The notes beneath the pieces were generated by a model that did no database searches, was not told the origin of the DNA, and saw nothing but the letters and a program-made list of their open reading frames with translations. A stretch of DNA of 64,000 nt from Cytophagales bacterium CG12_big_fil_rev_8_21_14_0_65_40_12. GTDB taxonomy: Bacteria; Bacteroidota; Bacteroidia; Cytophagales; Cyclobacteriaceae. Each line of letters begins with the position of its first letter. The first letter of the stretch is position 1. The stretch covers positions 1 to 64,000 of the forward strand of contig PCUU01000033.1 of the NCBI GenBank assembly GCA_002786855.1. The letters are read 5' to 3'. The translations under genes were made by a program, and so were the position numbers. Positions 27,418 to 33,546 of the stretch are shown piece after piece.

Positions 27418-28212
27418 TCACTCTCTCCATTTGGTATTAGGTGATTTTCCCGAAAAGTATTCTTTCGGCCCAATACCAGCGAACCTATTGAAGTCATGAA
27501 TGAAATGTGATTGATCGTAATAACCGCAATCCAAAGCAATGTCCGATAATTTCAGATATTCCTTCCCATAAAATTGAATGGCATGGTGAAATCTAGCAAT
27601 GCGAATAAATTGCTTAGGACTGAAACCCGCAAACTGAGAAAACTGCCGCTCTAATTGCCGTTCGCTGATCGCATGATCTGAAGAAAGTTGCTTTACAGTT
27701 GGTGTTCCGTCCGTCTGAATAATATGCTTTAACAATTCAAATACGGGCAACTGAGTTGTTTTTGATTTTGACAGTCTCTTTTCAACAAAGTTTTCGATAA
27801 TGGTAATGCGTTGCTCATCAGAGCTGCTGTTCATAATTTGGTCTTCTAAATTTGCCCCAATCCCTTTTAATATGAGGTCGATTTCAACCATCTGATTGGT
27901 AAGTTCCTTTGCAGGAATACCAAAGAGTAAAGGGATTGCATGAGGATAGAAATAAATCCCAAACATGCTAAAACCACTGTCGATTACAAACTTACTGGTT
28001 TGATTAGTTGGGCCATTAATTCCTGATAAAAAGGACGGCTTTCGCTCGCCTTTCTCATCAATTACATCGAACTGGCCTTTGTAATGAAAAACAAGCTCAG
28101 GGCATACATCAGCCATCCCGTAATGGGTGTAAGGTTGGTTACTTTCCAGAAACCAAAAGCAGCGGATGTAATCCTTGAGCTTTATTGAAGGAAGAACAGT
28201 ACGGTAAATCAA
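27418..28212 (-). CDS. AraC family transcriptional regulator
   Basis: A 264-residue regulator. The N-terminal half resembles the DUF6597 sensor found in Bacteroidota AraC proteins (YIRCFWFLES opening, HYKGQFDV, GIYFYPHA near 108-115). The C-terminal half is an AraC DNA-binding domain of two helix-turn-helix units, with ISERQLERQFSQFAGFSPKQF (about 188-208) and IALDCGYYDQSHF (about 227-239). It is the last gene of the leftward series that starts with the DoxX gene at 30184 (21-base gap to the next). It probably controls its own operon or the nearby VOC gene. Confidence 0.9.
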   Translation of the reverse strand: MIYRTVLPSIKLKDYIRCFWFLESNQPYTHYGMADVCPELVFHYKGQFDVIDEKGERKPSFLSGINGPTNQTSKFVIDSGFSMFGIYFYPHAIPLLFGIPAKELTNQMVEIDLILKGIGANLEDQIMNSSSDEQRITIIENFVEKRLSKSKTTQLPVFELLKHIIQTDGTPTVKQLSSDHAISERQLERQFSQFAGFSPKQFIRIARFHHAIQFYGKEYLKLSDIALDCGYYDQSHFIHDFNRFAGIGPKEYFSGKSPNTKWRE

Positions 28213-28233: not shown

Positions 28234-28674
28234 TTACGCCTTTTCAGCACAATTGAACATCCAATGCACTCCAAACTTGTCAGTGCAACTGCCGTAATAA
28301 TCACCCCAGAACATGTCTTGTAGATCCATGGTTACGGTTCCTCCAGTTGAAAGCGCATCGAATAGTTTTTTGGTTTCCACTCTGGTGTCGGGCTGAAGGT
28401 TGATGTAGCTGTTGTTACCAAAGTTTACTTTGAATCCCATGCTTTCTGGTGCGTCTGTACCCATTAGGCTGTGGCAACCTAAAATGCATAATTCCACATG
28501 CATCACGAGATTTTTGTCTTCTTCGGCCGTAGGAGGCATTCCTTCCTGCGCTGGGATATCGCCAAAGCGCATAATTCCCTGTCCGAAAAATTCTCCTCCA
28601 AAAACGGATTTGTAAAAATTAAATGCTTCCTCAGTATTTCGAGAAAAGTTGAGATAAGTGCTAACTGCTGCCAT
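28234..28674 (-). CDS. VOC family protein, PhnB-like
   Basis: A 146-residue PhnB-type VOC protein with the hallmark YLNFSRNTEEAFNFYKSVFG start (about 7-26) and a C-terminal WGDYYGSCTDKFGVHWMFN segment (about 123-141). Similar proteins were once annotated as 3-demethylubiquinone methyltransferase; that name is not supported. It is one of three VOC genes within 4 kb, each a separate subtype. Ligand unknown. 16 bases separate it from the next gene upstream. Confidence 0.88.
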   Translation of the reverse strand: MAAVSTYLNFSRNTEEAFNFYKSVFGGEFFGQGIMRFGDIPAQEGMPPTAEEDKNLVMHVELCILGCHSLMGTDAPESMGFKVNFGNNSYINLQPDTRVETKKLFDALSTGGTVTMDLQDMFWGDYYGSCTDKFGVHWMFNCAEKA

Positions 28675-28690
28675 AATGTTGTGTTTGATT

Positions 28691-28990
28691 TTAATTGAGT
28701 TTAAAACTTAAATTATTCTCTTCCAGTGCGCTTTTCAATACAGACATGGCTTTTGGCCCCATACCGTGAAGTACTGATATTTCCTTTTCGCTGTATGCTG
28801 AAATTTCGTTTAAACTGGAAATTCCTTTTCCTTCCAAAGCCCTTCTGGCTGGTGCTGCGATTTGTGACAAGAAGCCATTTTTGGGTTTTCGCTGTGCTTC
28901 GCAAATCGGGCAAGTAGGGCAATCGCTAGTTTTATAAAATTCATGCCCTTTTGTGCAGGTCCTTAACCCTTCTTCTTTCCCTGCCGTCAT
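28691..28990 (-). CDS. zinc-binding protein with RNA polymerase alpha-CTD-like HhH domain
   Basis: A 99-residue protein with four cysteines (about 12, 24, 27 and 30) in a TCTKGHEF ... CPTCPIC arrangement forming a zinc finger, then a helix-hairpin-helix domain of the RNA polymerase alpha-CTD type (about 40-92; GISSLNEISAYSEKEISVLH and GMGPKAMSVLK). The alpha-CTD fold binds DNA or sigma factors. It lies 2 bases from the DHFR-like gene in the DoxX operon. Such proteins recur in similar neighbourhoods; the function is not established. Confidence 0.8.
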   Translation of the reverse strand: MTAGKEEGLRTCTKGHEFYKTSDCPTCPICEAQRKPKNGFLSQIAAPARRALEGKGISSLNEISAYSEKEISVLHGMGPKAMSVLKSALEENNLSFKLN

Positions 28991-28992
28991 GA

Positions 28993-29556
28993 TTAAATGC
29001 TTTGTTGTTTCTCATAAGTAAGCAACACTACTCCGCTTTTGAACACCTTTGAATTAATGAGTTTAAGGTTTAGCGTGTCTTTTATACCACTGAAGAGCGT
29101 TTGTCCGCTTGGTAGCGCAACGGGGTCGATCATGATTTGATAAGTATCGATTAACCCGGCATCGGTAAACTGAGATACAATACTTCCACTTCCCAGAATG
29201 GTCATGTCATTTCCTTCAGTCAGTTTTAGTTTTGCTATTTGATCTATACTATTTCCACTGATTATTGAAGTGTTCTGCCATTCGGCTTTTTTCATCGTAT
29301 TCGAGAATACTATTTTTTCAGCATTATTCATTCCAACCGCCACTTTAGGGAACATTTCGGCCGCCATCTCGGTGGGCCAAAAACTACTCATCATTAGGTA
29401 AGTAGTCCTTCCAAACAATAGTATATTTTCTGATTGAAGTGATGCTTCTGAGAATTCAGCCTCTTCTTTGCCATGTTGATGCCAACTGGTGTTTTCGTTT
29501 AGGCCTTTATAATAACCATTGAGCGATAAAAATGTAAATGAGTTTAGTTTACGCAT
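28993..29556 (-). CDS. dihydrofolate reductase family (RibD C-terminal-like) protein
   Basis: A 187-residue NADPH-binding alpha/beta protein of the RibD_C/DHFR superfamily: SLNGYYKGLNENTSW (about 11-25), GRTTYLMMSSFWP (about 50-62), a GSGSIVSQFTDAGLID strand-helix (about 121-136) and a final LTYE (about 179-182). Members catalyse NADPH-linked reductions of pterin-like or other small compounds; this one lacks assigned substrate. It is not the essential folA gene, which has a different active site. In the middle of the DoxX operon, 2 bases from the zinc/HhH gene. Confidence 0.87.
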   Translation of the reverse strand: MRKLNSFTFLSLNGYYKGLNENTSWHQHGKEEAEFSEASLQSENILLFGRTTYLMMSSFWPTEMAAEMFPKVAVGMNNAEKIVFSNTMKKAEWQNTSIISGNSIDQIAKLKLTEGNDMTILGSGSIVSQFTDAGLIDTYQIMIDPVALPSGQTLFSGIKDTLNLKLINSKVFKSGVVLLTYEKQQSI

Positions 29557-29575: not shown

Positions 29576-29788
29576 TTATAAAAGCAAAGCCTCATTATTC
29601 ATTTCGTTTAGCAATCGAATAATGGACTTAGTATCAATCTTGATTCCCTGCGTTTCAATGCGAAGAATTTTGTCGCAATCCTCTAAATCGAAGTTGGCCA
29701 AATAGTCTGGGTAGGCTTCTCGAATTTGATTTAATACCTTCCTAGCCTTACTCCAGCTGTCGATATTTGTGGCAAATACTTCGATCAT
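29576..29788 (-). CDS. conserved small protein, HMA-like fold possible
   Basis: A 70-residue protein. The pattern ending in NQIREAYPDYLANFDLEDCDKILRIE (about 22-47, one Cys) resembles small cytoplasmic Bacteroidota proteins with a ferredoxin-like (heavy-metal-associated type) fold, but it has no CxxC metal site. It is 19 bases from the DHFR-like gene and 27 from the DoxX gene. Function unknown. Confidence 0.65.
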   Translation of the reverse strand: MIEVFATNIDSWSKARKVLNQIREAYPDYLANFDLEDCDKILRIETQGIKIDTKSIIRLLNEMNNEALLL

Positions 29789-29815: not shown

Positions 29816-30184
29816 TCAGGTATTTGGATTCAATTTATGATAATGGATATAAGAAAGCACTAACACAACCATAAAAAATAAGGGCAGTAGAAGTACAGGG
29901 CCAAAGCCATCTACAGCCGCATTGCTCACAAATGCCGCTATAAAGTCAATCGCAAATCCGGCATAAGCCCATTCTTTTACGCGTTTTGGTATCGAAGGAA
30001 TAATGAGTGCCAAAGAGCCAAGTACTTTAAATACAGTAAGCATGACTCCAAAATAATCGGGATAGCCCAAATGACGGATTCCTTCTTTGGCCAATTCGGT
30101 TTGCGAAGTCAGTGCGGGCATAACGCCTTCAAACAGAAAAATTAGAATGGTAGTGCTCCAAAAAATTATTTTGCTCTTTTTCAT
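29816..30184 (-). CDS. DoxX-like membrane protein
   Basis: A 122-residue inner-membrane protein with four helices (about 7-24, 46-64, 72-92, 97-115) of the DoxX family. An upstream in-frame ATG at 30217 would add 11 polar residues; I chose 30184 because the MKKSKIIFW start directly precedes the first helix as in relatives. DoxX proteins act in membrane-linked redox stress or sulfur metabolism in other bacteria; no such role is shown here. It is the first gene of the leftward operon. An operator-like direct repeat lies 77 bases upstream. Confidence 0.83.
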   Translation of the reverse strand: MKKSKIIFWSTTILIFLFEGVMPALTSQTELAKEGIRHLGYPDYFGVMLTVFKVLGSLALIIPSIPKRVKEWAYAGFAIDFIAAFVSNAAVDGFGPVLLLPLFFMVVLVLSYIHYHKLNPNT

Positions 30185-30260
30185 AGTAGTGGTTTTTGAT
30201 TTTTGTGATTCGTTCAATACAAATTTGCCTAAATAAATTGTTTACTAAGCGGTGCGTATC

Positions 30261-30290
30261 CGCCATTGTTAAGGGTTGATTACGCCATTG
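30261..30290. promoter_or_regulatory. AraC-type operator 1 (direct repeat)
   Basis: CGCCATTG occurs at 30261-30268 and 30283-30290, 22 bases apart (two helical turns). The stretch AAGGGTTGATTACGCCA (30271-30287) recurs with one change at 31486-31502. This spacing is characteristic of AraC-family half sites. It lies upstream of the DoxX operon. Confidence 0.55.
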
Positions 30291-30335
30291 CATCTGTTGT
30301 TTGCTCATTGAGCTTGATTTTCCAAAAAGAGGTTT

Positions 30336-30743
30336 TTAATCCCTACTATGAAAAAGCCATTGCTTTCCAAATTGGTCGGTAAGACTGCCCAGAAAACTGC
30401 CCGAAAATGTGGATTCAAGGGGCTGCAAGGCATCCCCATTTTTTGCAAGTCTTTGATAATAATAGCGTGCTTCACTTATAGTATTACATTCAAGCCAAAT
30501 AGAAAGTGAATTGCCTTGCACCAAACTGTGCTCTCCAACGAGGTCTGTTCCCATCAGCTTAAAATGATGGGTCTTAATGGAAGCCTGAAGAATGTAGCTT
30601 TGCATTTCAGGATTCAATTGGCTTCCCAACGGTGAGTCACCGAGGGTCTGAAACTGAATTTCACCACCAAAGCACTGATGGTAAAATGTCATCGCCTCAC
30701 GACAATTGCCGTTAAACGTGAGGTATATACCCAGCTGACACAT
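30336..30743 (-). CDS. VOC family protein, PhnB-like
   Basis: A 135-residue PhnB-like VOC protein: YLTFNGNCREAMTFYHQCFG (about 7-26), a central FKLMGTDL and a closing GSLTDQFGKQWLFH (about 119-132). It is the third VOC gene of the cluster, and it is the terminal gene of a leftward operon SRPBCC - DUF4287 - VOC. Function unknown; a metal-dependent reaction is possible but I cannot assign all ligands. Confidence 0.87.
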   Translation of the reverse strand: MCQLGIYLTFNGNCREAMTFYHQCFGGEIQFQTLGDSPLGSQLNPEMQSYILQASIKTHHFKLMGTDLVGEHSLVQGNSLSIWLECNTISEARYYYQRLAKNGDALQPLESTFSGSFLGSLTDQFGKQWLFHSRD

Positions 30744-30749
30744 GTTTTG

Positions 30750-30968
30750 TCAATTCCTTTTCCCCTTTAAGTAAGCCAACAGGGCCATGGCATGTCCGTG
30801 CCCTAAATCGAATTCATCTTTGAGCCAATCCGTGATCGTTGTCGCCTTTATGCCTTTAATGATTTCACCATTCTCGGTAAAGCCTTTGGTCTCGGCCATG
30901 GCGCTGAAATCTTCAAGACGCTTTCCTGTCTTCGATTGAATATTATCCAAATAGGCTTGAAATGACAT
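30750..30968 (-). CDS. DUF4287 domain protein
   Basis: A 72-residue protein matching DUF4287: the start MSFQAYLDNIQSKTGK (1-16), then GIKATTITDWLKDEFDLGHGHAMAL (about 39-63). DUF4287 is often fused to or next to SRPBCC proteins, and here it lies between an SRPBCC gene and a VOC gene, with 6 and 21 base spacings. Cytoplasmic and small; function unknown, possibly helical-bundle binding. Confidence 0.85.
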   Translation of the reverse strand: MSFQAYLDNIQSKTGKRLEDFSAMAETKGFTENGEIIKGIKATTITDWLKDEFDLGHGHAMALLAYLKGKRN

Positions 30969-30989
30969 ATTGAAACGTTTTAAGTTGAA

Positions 30990-31400
30990 TCAATTTTTCT
31001 CGGTGTAGGCCTTAAAGTTATCGAGTATGGCCTGCCAACCATCGCGCTGCATGTCTATGGGATTTTCGCTTTCAGGATCAAAGGTTTCTACGATCTCTGT
31101 ACTTCCTTCTTTCTCTTCAAAAGTGATTTTCACGGTTCTACCATCCTCCATGGTATAGGCAATTAACTTATGATGGATGACTTCATCATAGATTCCTCCA
31201 AAATCGAAACCGAAACTGCCATCTTTGGCTTCCATTCTTGTGGTGAATTTACCACCTGTTCTTAAGTCATTTTCAGCGCTTGGGGTATGCCAATCGTCCG
31301 ATGCGCTGCACCATTGCGTAATGTGTGCTGGTGTTCCCCAAAAATCCCAAACTTTGTCGATGGGTGCGTTTACGGTAGCTTGTATGGTGATCTTTTCCAT
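30990..31400 (-). CDS. SRPBCC (AHSA1-type) ligand-binding protein
   Basis: A 136-residue SRPBCC protein: VNAPIDKVWDFWGTPAHITQW (about 10-30), GGKFTTRMEAKDG and a C-terminal helix (DGWQAILDNFKAY, about 119-131). It is the first gene of the SRPBCC-DUF4287-VOC operon and is divergent from the GlxA-type regulator gene, with 124 bases between the starts. That regulator is therefore the natural candidate to control it. The ligand pocket is implied by the fold only. Confidence 0.87.
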   Translation of the reverse strand: MEKITIQATVNAPIDKVWDFWGTPAHITQWCSASDDWHTPSAENDLRTGGKFTTRMEAKDGSFGFDFGGIYDEVIHHKLIAYTMEDGRTVKITFEEKEGSTEIVETFDPESENPIDMQRDGWQAILDNFKAYTEKN

Positions 31401-31475
31401 GTCTTTATTTTAAGGTTTTCAATAGATTACATTACAAATATCTCAATTCAATTTTATTTACAAGAGGGGGGATAC

Positions 31476-31504
31476 CGACACTTTAAAGGGTTGATTCCGC
31501 CAAT
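31476..31504. promoter_or_regulatory. AraC-type operator 2
   Basis: AAGGGTTGATTCCGCCA at 31486-31502 matches operator 1 at 16 of 17 bases, and a related half site CGACACT (31476-31482) lies 22 bases before CGCCAAT. The TTG at 31491 and TACTTTTA at 31514 are spaced like -33 and -7 elements of the regulator gene, so the operator overlaps its -33 box and also lies upstream of the divergent SRPBCC operon. Confidence 0.6.
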
Positions 31505-31524
31505 CTTTTATTTTACTTTTAAGC

Positions 31525-32508
31525 ATGAAAACCGTTTCGATATTTGTTCCTGAGTCATCTGTAATGGAGGCAGTAGCTGACCCTCGCTATATGTTTACCG
31601 CTGCAAATCAGTTTCTGCAAGCAGCAGAAAAGACACCCCTTTTCAATGTGCAATTGGTGGCATTAACGAAAGAAGTAAGGCTGCATGGCGGTGTATTCTC
31701 CGTCCATGCGGATAAGCTGATTGGAGAAGTTAAGCAAACCGACTTGATCATTATTCCTGCGCTTTTCGGTGATATGAAAAATGCAGTAGAAGTAAATCAA
31801 GAGGCAATCCCATGGATTATTGAGCAACATAATAATGGGGCAGAAGTGGCTTCTCTTTGCTTAGGCGCATTTTTGCTAGCGTCTACAGGTTTGCTTAAAG
31901 ACAAAAAGTGTTCAACACATTGGGCTTATTATAACGAATTTAGGACCACCTTTCCAGATGTAGAAATTATGGATGGGAGTATTATTACCGAAGAGAAAGG
32001 CATTTACTCAAGTGGCGGAGCCAATTCTTATTGGAACTTGCTCCTTTATATTCTCGAAAAATATGCCGATCGCGATACTGCTATTTTAGCCTCCAAATAT
32101 TTCGCTATTGATCTTGACCGCAGCAGCCAATCTTCATTTGCCATTTTCAATGGACAGAAGGACCATAATGATGAAGCGGTTAAACTGGCACAGCAATATT
32201 TAGAAGAGAATTTCCAAGAGAAAGTCTCTGTGGATGAAATAGCAGATCATGTGGCGGTAAGCCGAAGAAGTTTTGAACGAAGGTTTAAACTAGCCACTGG
32301 AAACACCATTTTAGAATACCTGCAACGCATTAAGATTGAAGCGGCCAAACGTAGTTTTGAATCCAGCCGAAAAAACATCAATGAAGTCATGTTTGATGTG
32401 GGCTATACCGATACCAAAGCTTTTCGTAATGTATTCAAGAAAATTACTGGACTCACCCCGATTGAATACCGAAACAAATATGCTAAGATGGAGATGGCCA
32501 GTGCTTAG
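31525..32508 (+). CDS. GlxA-type transcriptional regulator (DJ-1/PfpI + AraC)
   Basis: A 327-residue regulator: an N-terminal DJ-1/PfpI-fold amidotransferase-like domain (1-190) with the nucleophile-elbow Cys in ASLCLGAF (about 112-119), and a C-terminal AraC domain (about 215-320) with VSVDEIADHVAVSRRSFERRF and VMFDVGYTDTKAFRNVF helices. The DJ-1 part serves as sensor or dimerisation domain in GlxA relatives. It is divergent from the SRPBCC operon and overlaps the convergent DUF1801 gene by 4 bases. Repeated operator-like sequences suggest it controls itself and three leftward operons. Confidence 0.9.
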   Translation: MKTVSIFVPESSVMEAVADPRYMFTAANQFLQAAEKTPLFNVQLVALTKEVRLHGGVFSVHADKLIGEVKQTDLIIIPALFGDMKNAVEVNQEAIPWIIEQHNNGAEVASLCLGAFLLASTGLLKDKKCSTHWAYYNEFRTTFPDVEIMDGSIITEEKGIYSSGGANSYWNLLLYILEKYADRDTAILASKYFAIDLDRSSQSSFAIFNGQKDHNDEAVKLAQQYLEENFQEKVSVDEIADHVAVSRRSFERRFKLATGNTILEYLQRIKIEAAKRSFESSRKNINEVMFDVGYTDTKAFRNVFKKITGLTPIEYRNKYAKMEMASA

Positions 32509-32867
32509 GCTTTGATGGTTCCATTTCGATATAAATTCAAAGCTTGATGGAGTAATGGTCCAATGGCTTTAACAGGAAGGTCTTGTAGTGGATCAACCCT
32601 AAAGATTTTCATTCTGGAACGCGTACCCGCTTCTAAATCAGGGTGATCGAGGTGTTTTCCTTCTACAAAAAGTACGTAGGGCGCTTTCGTTTTTTTATCC
32701 GTCCACAGATAACAGAAGACCTTTTTCTTGTAGCAAAAGCATGGCATTCCATATTTGCGGGTTTCGCTTACCTGCTCATCTTGCCCCAGAATAATCCTTC
32801 TTAAGGCCAACAAACAGCCTTTTGTAGGCTCTTCCTGCACTAAGTAAAAATCCTCAGGGCTCTGCAT
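32505..32867 (-). CDS. DUF1801 (YdhG-like) domain protein
   Basis: A 120-residue protein of the DUF1801 group: a helical opening, then SETRKYGMPCFCYKKKVFCYLW (about 34-55) with three Cys, and PYVLFVEGKHLDHPDLE (about 63-79). DUF1801 proteins recur beside SRPBCC and VOC genes in many Bacteroidota; function unknown. It is 3 bases from the TMEM175-like gene upstream and probably cotranscribed with it. Confidence 0.83.
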   Translation of the reverse strand: MQSPEDFYLVQEEPTKGCLLALRRIILGQDEQVSETRKYGMPCFCYKKKVFCYLWTDKKTKAPYVLFVEGKHLDHPDLEAGTRSRMKIFRVDPLQDLPVKAIGPLLHQALNLYRNGTIKA

Positions 32868-32870
32868 GGC

Positions 32871-33491
32871 TTAGGCAATTCTAGCCAACCTTTTTTTGAA
32901 ATGGGCATTGATCAAAGCTTGAAAAACGAAGATCAAAATGAAAATGAAACGCGCCAAAGCGGGGAAAACAAAAGCTACCAGGCCTGCAATTACCCATACC
33001 ACAAATGAATTCAAAGCCCTCATCTTTTCCCATTGCCCAGTGATCGGGTCAATAGCGCCAGAAGGCTTCACCTTTTTGACCACATAGCGCACGATCAAAT
33101 AATTAAAGAGACCAATGGCAGAAAGATTGAAACTGTAAAAAATGAAAGGACCCGATAGGTCAAATCCATTCACGTAAAATGAGGTAGCAAAGGGCATCAG
33201 CACCACAAAAAGAAGAAGAAAAATATTTAGCCAAAGGAGTTTTATGTCAAAATCTTCAACGTAACTCATAATGCGCAAATGGGCAATCCAATACACCGCT
33301 GTGACCAAGAAGCTCACCACCAAACCAATGAAATTGGGCATTAAACCTGAAAGAACGCCCCAAGTGCCTTTTGCTGCAACCACTTGGTAGGTTGGAATGG
33401 CGACTTCCAAGACCAGCAAGGTCATGGCGATGGAAAATACTGCATCTATAAAACTAATGATCCTTCCTCTTTCGAATGATGTTCTGCGCAT
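32871..33491 (-). CDS. TMEM175-family potassium channel-like protein
   Basis: A 206-residue membrane protein with about six helices and the bacterial TMEM175 signature in helix 1, ISFIDAVFSIAMTLLVLEV (about 12-30); the family's FSD triad reads FID here. Bacterial TMEM175 proteins form tetrameric K+-selective pores. It heads a two-gene operon with DUF1801. An operator-like sequence resembling those at 30.3 and 31.5 kb lies 41 bases upstream, which would link an ion channel to the ligand-binding cluster. Conduction is not implied by sequence alone. Confidence 0.85.
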   Translation of the reverse strand: MRRTSFERGRIISFIDAVFSIAMTLLVLEVAIPTYQVVAAKGTWGVLSGLMPNFIGLVVSFLVTAVYWIAHLRIMSYVEDFDIKLLWLNIFLLLFVVLMPFATSFYVNGFDLSGPFIFYSFNLSAIGLFNYLIVRYVVKKVKPSGAIDPITGQWEKMRALNSFVVWVIAGLVAFVFPALARFIFILIFVFQALINAHFKKRLARIA

Positions 33492-33531
33492 TGTTCTGGG
33501 TTAAGCTTAAAAGTAATAAGAAATGCTTTAC

Positions 33532-33546
33532 GGCTTGATTATGCCA
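33532..33546. promoter_or_regulatory. candidate AraC-type operator 3 (weak)
   Basis: GGCTTGATTATGCCA matches the core GGGTTGATTACGCCA of operator 1 at 13 of 15 bases and lies 41 bases upstream of the TMEM175 gene. The distal half site is not recognisable, so this is weaker than the other two. Confidence 0.3.

Follow-up and report, generated by a model that had tools for sequence, protein, structure and literature searches.

In the 64,000-nucleotide stretch of Cytophagales bacterium CG12_big_fil_rev_8_21_14_0_65_40_12 analysed here (contig PCUU01000033.1 of assembly GCA_002786855.1, positions 1 to 64,000; hereafter the window), a gene for a GlxA-type regulator of the AraC family (glxA) diverges from an SRPBCC operon, beyond which lies a DoxX-led gene run on the same strand as that operon. 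A first-pass annotation had proposed that AraC-type operators at three places link this regulator to three leftward operons. The locus raises the question of which of these places are operators, which protein would bind them, and whether it would switch the leftward genes on or off. Two of the three places prove to carry one kind of operator, and we consider it probable, judging from sequence, that the GlxA-type protein is dedicated to local regulation, acting as a class II activator of the leftward promoters and covering its own promoter.

The operator and its link to the GlxA-type regulator

The sequences AAGGGTTGATTACGCCA (30271–30287) and AAGGGTTGATTCCGCCA (31486–31502) are identical at 16 of 17 positions. 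When up to three mismatches are allowed, the 17-base pattern has five matches in the window against 0.59 expected, a number reached in none of 100 shuffles. Nine matches with up to two mismatches are found in the genome (4.06 Mb in 99 contigs, including the window), and only those at 30271 and 31486 are perfect. At the first site CGCCATTG occurs twice, at 30261 and 30283, with a spacing of 22 bases, and at the second site CCGCCA is preceded by CCGACA 22 bases earlier. Conservation extends beyond the 17 bases: the unit spans about 39 bp and consists of two 15-bp half-sites in direct repeat 22 bp apart, the second of which reads GGGTTGATTnCGaCA in the DNA upstream of GlxA-type orthologs, and the consensus on the leftward strand is TGTCGC-N16-TGTCGC. 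The first-pass annotation had placed the 16-of-17 agreement and the repeat at the first site correctly, and with its 17-base sites it understated the length and the strength of the feature. The two operators, which lie between glxA and the SRPBCC operon and upstream of the DoxX operon as it had stated, are as follows.

31464–31504, plus strand: operator 1, between glxA and the SRPBCC operon; half-sites 31466–31480 and 31488–31502
30249–30289, plus strand: operator 2, upstream of doxX; half-sites 30251–30265 and 30273–30287

For a sequence-only profile of 41 positions (R1), 30 loci of GlxA-type orthologs were fetched, not all of them with an upstream site; 21 with a good site were chosen, and 17 of these sites went into the profile. 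A search of the whole genome with R1 returned operator 1, itself one of the training sites (31465–31503, 33.9 bits, E 8.9e-8), and operator 2, which is outside the training set (30250–30288, 29.4 bits, E 2.4e-6), followed by a third-ranked place with 11.2 bits. A simple 41-position matrix scored the two operators at 48.2 and 41.2 in the window and the next place at 8.0. The sites and their uniqueness in this genome are thereby established as features of the sequence, and by these scores the two are one kind of operator.

The occurrence of the motif was then compared with that of the regulator in 99 related genomes. The GlxA-type protein has a match at E≤0.001 in 97 of these, in many through one domain only, and a close ortholog, taken as a match of about 290 bits or more, in 36. 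R1 also matched 36 of the 99 genomes at E≤0.01, and a reversed R1 profile, used as control, matched none of them. The motif is present in 31 of the 36 genomes with a close ortholog and in 5 of the 63 without one (Fisher p ~2e-15), and the association persists with the 17 training genomes removed (14 of 19 versus 5 of 63; p ~4e-8). In a phylum-wide draw of 395 genomes, 40 were matched by R1 at E≤1e-4, giving 42 places, of which 28 were newly fetched and analysed, three were already known (G000 twice and G016) and 11 were left out. A GlxA homolog with 44–75% identity adjoins the motif at all 28 new loci, on the expected side and with its start within 250 bp. GlxA relatives supplied 30 further loci from named genomes, of which 20 carry the motif (reversed control 0 of 30); this set includes three sister species that had already been seen, one locus without upstream DNA (L209) and one with 176 bp only (L199). 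Both operators are conserved in the three sister species (G004, G006 and G014). Conservation and the link to the regulator are thus established, and the proposal that the GlxA-type gene goes with an operator for an AraC-type dimer is borne out by the co-occurrence, the new loci and the sister species together.

31525–32508, plus strand: GlxA-type regulator gene, encoding a DJ-1/PfpI-like domain followed by an AraC-type helix-turn-helix (HTH) domain (Pfam DJ-1_PfpI, HTH_18, HTH_AraC)

The DJ-1_PfpI and HTH_18 matches of the protein score 46.3 and 73.6 bits, respectively, both above the cut-off, and the N-terminal fold of its structure model resembles 3er6 and 3gra. This is the architecture of the GATase-1-like AraC proteins, a DJ-1/PfpI-like N-terminal domain with an AraC-type HTH domain, and the operators have direct-repeat cores of the kind expected for that group (TGTCGC or GGTCGC about 21 bp apart), here at 22 bp in both sites. 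By architecture and operator the protein is placed in the GATase-1-like group. Its nearest named relatives are in Roseivirga seohaensis, R. echinicomitans and R. ehrenbergii (94–95% identity). The closest named full-length family is FtrA (NCBIfam NF006902), with 149 bits over residues 49–321, which is far below the NCBIfam equivalog cut-off of 425 bits and does not place the protein in FtrA, and the score for GbdR is 105.1 bits against an equivalog cut-off of 480 bits.

Promoter geometry and the direction of control

The primary sigma factor of Bacteroidota is described in excerpts of three papers as reading TAnnTTTG at about -12 to -5, with a TTTG near -33 that is described too, yet not evident in Flavobacterium johnsoniae (PMC6847099, PMC7366714, PMC9723704). 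A -7 box was accepted here when at least 5 of the 6 specified bases of TAnnTTTG were present. R1 gave 61 places in the related genomes, of which 58 were analysed, including weak matches inside genes that are probably false; three places of G098, which mirror G083 in score, were omitted, and one further weak match (L102:6766, 15.1 bits) lies outside the analysed set. In 44 of the 58 sites a leftward -7 box follows the operator at an offset of exactly 21 bp, against a background of 0.26 sites per other offset, and three further sites have it at offset 20. The offset of 21 recurs at 33 of the 41 sites with at least 23 bits, at 26 of the 40 that are left once sites identical to a training row are set aside, and at 16 of the 28 new phylum-wide loci. 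It was not built in, because the box lies outside the profile. On the other side, the operator is followed by a -7 box after 9 bp at 26 of the 33 sites with glxA to the right (a hand-made list that includes a decayed copy in L077) versus none of the 25 others, and at 19 of the 28 new loci. The fixed promoter geometry is established by these counts. In the window the predicted boxes are the following.

31435–31442, minus strand: -7 box of the SRPBCC operon, GATATTTG, 21 bp beyond operator 1; predicted start site near 31430
30220–30227, minus strand: -7 box of the DoxX operon, CAAATTTG, 21 bp beyond operator 2; predicted start site near 30215
31514–31521, plus strand: -7 box of glxA, TACTTTTA, 9 bp beyond operator 1; its -33 TTG (31491–31493) lies within the operator

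Relative to the predicted leftward starts the half-sites cover -36 to -50 and -58 to -72 at the SRPBCC and DoxX promoters alike, and the near half-site therefore occupies the place of the -33 element. This is the class II arrangement, in which a near half-site abuts the -33 or -35 element at a fixed distance from the -7 or -10 box, as counted from predicted start sites. The predicted leaders, counted from the -5 position, are 30 nt for SRPBCC and 31 nt for DoxX. Scans for sigma-70 promoters gave no excess over shuffles (12 versus 10.0 and 10 versus 12.6), as expected for this phylum.

E. coli AraC at araI1-I2 likewise uses direct-repeat half-sites, of which the near one abuts the -35 element. 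The class II logic is the same, although that protein has no DJ-1-like domain and acts at a sigma-70 promoter. From the geometry and the AraC precedent we infer dimer binding, class II activation rather than repression of the leftward promoters, and occlusion and autorepression of glxA. A dimer would bind the two 15-bp half-sites (GGGTTGATTnCGaCA-like) in direct repeat and recruit polymerase with the Bacteroidota primary sigma factor to the TAnnTTTG-like -7 box at the fixed distance of 21 bp. The far half-site of operator 1 would cover the -33 element and spacer of the glxA promoter, and the same occupancy should therefore keep glxA expression low. The activity of the regulator would be set by a small molecule that its DJ-1-like domain reads, and by position it may be a ligand-dependent activator of a neighbouring operon. 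The glxA start codon follows the predicted -7 box after 3 nt (31514–31527), and the glxA mRNA may be leaderless; among the 44 glxA homologs whose box is good, 15 have a gap of 3–6 nt. Leaderless mRNAs are described, in excerpts, as a small minority in the Bacteroidota studied (5.5% in F. psychrophilum).

Several observations weigh against this account. No -7 box stands at offset 21 in 14 of the 58 sites (4 of the 33 glxA sites and 10 of the 25 others), the leftward box is missing at 12 of the 28 new loci, and the two leftward boxes in the window each fit only 5 of the 6 consensus bases. Five genomes (G020, G025, G041, G051 and G089) have a close ortholog and no motif match, and five have a match without a close ortholog, strong in G036 and G077 and weak in G062, G073 and G080. 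The glxA genes of G051 and G089 (L008 and L022) have variant or shifted sites, and decayed glxA remnants adjoin intact-looking operators at L077 (G036:C155) and L080 (G052:C1, the second operator of G052). Simple autorepression, finally, may be wrong because CdhR is reported, in the sections of the paper concerned, both to activate and to repress its own gene, according to its ligand state (PMC5806209).

A wider version of the proposal, which we regard as doubtful, would make the system a regulon of the whole phylum, in which one operator, placed at fixed distances between two divergent primary-sigma promoters, would allow a DJ-1-type AraC protein with Cys112 and Cys129 to sense reactive carbonyls, quinones or other electrophiles; a single binding event would then turn on a detoxification set (VOC/glyoxalase, DoxX, SRPBCC, ABM, RibD-type reductase and DinB proteins) and turn off the nearly leaderless glxA. 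All 70 distinct homologs have Cys112, His132 and Trp133, and 66 of the 70 have Cys129. Cys112 takes the position of the DJ-1 nucleophile. Both cysteine positions align with cysteines in plant DJ-1 homolog D (4ofw) but with other residues in 3er6, the nearest solved regulator domain. Bacillus quinone-stress regulons pair DoxX with VOC genes. A literature search on quinone regulons with DoxX gave no test of the electrophile idea, and a redox or electrophile signal is no more than possible.

That the GlxA-type protein binds these sites and instead represses the leftward operons until relieved by a ligand is unlikely. The direction of control is not readable from sequence, and some AraC-type proteins, CdhR among them, are described in part of the source as repressing without ligand (PMC5806209). 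Against this, all of the operator is upstream of the leftward -7 box, with a set spacing between them; this is the place of an activator, and a repressor would not need such exactness.

The second AraC protein and the site at 33530

Activation by the GlxA-type protein also has to be weighed against other owners of the motif, of which the nearest is a second AraC-type protein in the same gene cluster.

27418–28212, same strand as the DoxX-led gene run: second AraC-type gene, with DUF6597 and an HTH domain

At E≤1e-30 this protein is found in 16 of the 99 genomes, and 10 of the 16 carry the motif (Fisher p ~0.02), which favours it as the binder. G004 and G014 lack a match at this threshold, and the one in G006 is only 31% identical, yet all three sister species keep both operators, and phylum-wide the motif adjoins glxA homologs. 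We therefore judge it very unlikely that the sites belong to another regulator such as this one; binding by this protein only, which the first-pass annotation had named as an outcome that would speak against its proposal, is unlikely because the protein is unmatched or 31% identical where both operators are kept. If the second AraC gene is cotranscribed with the DoxX run, it would form a cascade under operator 2.

The third place, before the TMEM175/DUF1801 operon, fared differently. The sequence at 33530–33546 has three mismatches and matches 14 of 17 pattern bases, a free position being counted, and it is on this likeness that a regulon of all three sites would stand. No second half-site is seen in the sequence 22 bases upstream. 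The 41-position matrix scores the site at -3.7, with 50 higher-scoring places in the window, and R1 gives no match there, so that the genome scan that had been suggested as a check returns the two operators without it. The -7 box position predicted by the geometry of the other sites falls within the TMEM175 gene. The site is also absent upstream of both 79%-identical TMEM175 orthologs, the closest found, among 29 genomes. Score, geometry and conservation thus all speak against 33530 as a member of the operator class. By these measures it is a chance match, the TMEM175/DUF1801 operon is not supported as part of the regulon, and of the three sites first proposed two stand; the full three-site regulon deserves hardly any credence.

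A small repeated or mobile element, in place of operators, would account for two near-identical copies 1.2 kb apart, but this reading can practically be dismissed, since across the phylum only the half-site bases are kept and the spacers differ, there are two strong copies per genome, and their position is locked to promoters.

Predicted target genes and related systems

The genes that would come under the GlxA-type regulator through the two operators are, from operator 1,

30990–31400, minus strand: SRPBCC/AHSA1 protein, first gene of the operon at operator 1 (Pfam AHSA1)
30750–30968, minus strand: 72-aa protein, second gene of the SRPBCC operon (open reading frame; no NCBIfam match)
30336–30743, minus strand: VOC/PhnB-like protein, third gene of the SRPBCC operon (Pfam 3-dmu-9_3-mt, Glyoxalase)

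and, from operator 2,

29816–30184, minus strand: DoxX-like protein, first gene of the operon at operator 2 (Pfam DoxX_2)
29576–29788, minus strand: 70-aa protein, second gene of the DoxX gene run (open reading frame; no NCBIfam match)
28993–29556, minus strand: RibD_C (dihydrofolate-reductase-like) protein, DoxX gene run (Pfam RibD_C)
28691–28990, minus strand: 99-aa protein, DoxX gene run (NCBIfam NF005841, hypothetical protein, above cut-off; no Pfam match)
28234–28674, minus strand: VOC/PhnB-like protein, DoxX gene run (Pfam 3-dmu-9_3-mt, Glyoxalase)

Operator 2 sits directly past the last gene of the SRPBCC operon, within one long run of genes on the same strand that includes the second AraC gene. 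Terminator-like sites are no commoner than by chance (four versus 4.3 expected between 26600 and 31530) and so do not mark the operon ends.

Outside the window, 44 of 56 sites gave a leftward first gene by rule and 43 of these genes were scanned (without L113). Their Pfam families, of which one protein can match several, are Glyoxalase (13), 3-dmu-9_3-mt (8), AHSA1 (8), DoxX_2 (6), ABM (6), RibD_C (3) and DinB_2 (2), with single cases such as an MFS transporter, a DUF1761 protein, an amidohydrolase and a cyclase domain. A first gene was obtained at 26 of the 28 new phylum-wide loci: Glyoxalase (8), DinB_2 (6), 3-dmu-9_3-mt (6), AHSA1 (2), RibD_C (2) and singles. DoxX has its own operator away from glxA elsewhere too (L089, L101 and L103). 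SRPBCC orthologs in general were considered as targets and ruled out: of 16 orthologs at E<1e-30 in 59 genomes, the six fetched loci with the motif all lie beside glxA, and 10 have no motif, so that SRPBCC would be a target by place and not by family. The predicted targets (DoxX, SRPBCC/AHSA1, VOC/PhnB, RibD_C, ABM and DinB) are small proteins that the conserved operator would tie to one sensor, and the shared operator offers a handle on their common signal.

In Pseudomonas, CdhR and GbdR are assigned to the GATase-1-like subfamily of AraC proteins, and the CdhR site is given as GGTCGC-N15-GGTCGC and called very similar to those of GbdR, SouR and ArgR, in the portion of the source concerned (PMC5806209); the ARG box is given in an excerpt as TGTCGCN6GNAA, a tandem repeat 5 bp apart (PMC10963909). 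As far as these accounts go, all four have the same direct-repeat core as the operators here (TGTCGC-N16-TGTCGC), CdhR and GbdR share the build of the GlxA-type protein, and the CdhR site likewise lies between the regulator gene and a divergent target operon. The spacing of 22 bp is one base longer than the 21 bp of the Pseudomonas consensus strings. The system here belongs to another phylum and another sigma factor, and its targets are small VOC, SRPBCC, DoxX, ABM, RibD and DinB proteins, whereas those in Pseudomonas serve arginine or carnitine catabolism. No published description of this operator was recognised among the open PubMed Central papers that the searches listed. What seems new is the phylum of the host, the range of targets, the layout of the promoters and how widely the site is spread. 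The two-operator regulon is a well-supported regulatory prediction of a known kind. Its fixed operator/-7 geometry offers a model of class II activation at promoters read by the primary sigma factor of Bacteroidota, which is an unusual one, and might serve this phylum as an inducible promoter part.

Three minor observations concern the wider set of sites. Six loci (L081, L086, L091, L098, L099 and L108) have TGTCTA- or TGTCAT-like cores, before ABM-domain genes where tested, and possibly represent a regulator subfamily with shifted specificity. A 27.3-bit motif match at L084:1348–1386 precedes a gene with a guanylate/adenylate cyclase domain, with no -7 box at offset 21. A close glxA together with the operator also occurs in two metagenome-assembled genomes, one labelled Melioribacteraceae and one Pyrinomonadaceae (L184 and L202), by lateral transfer or misbinning.

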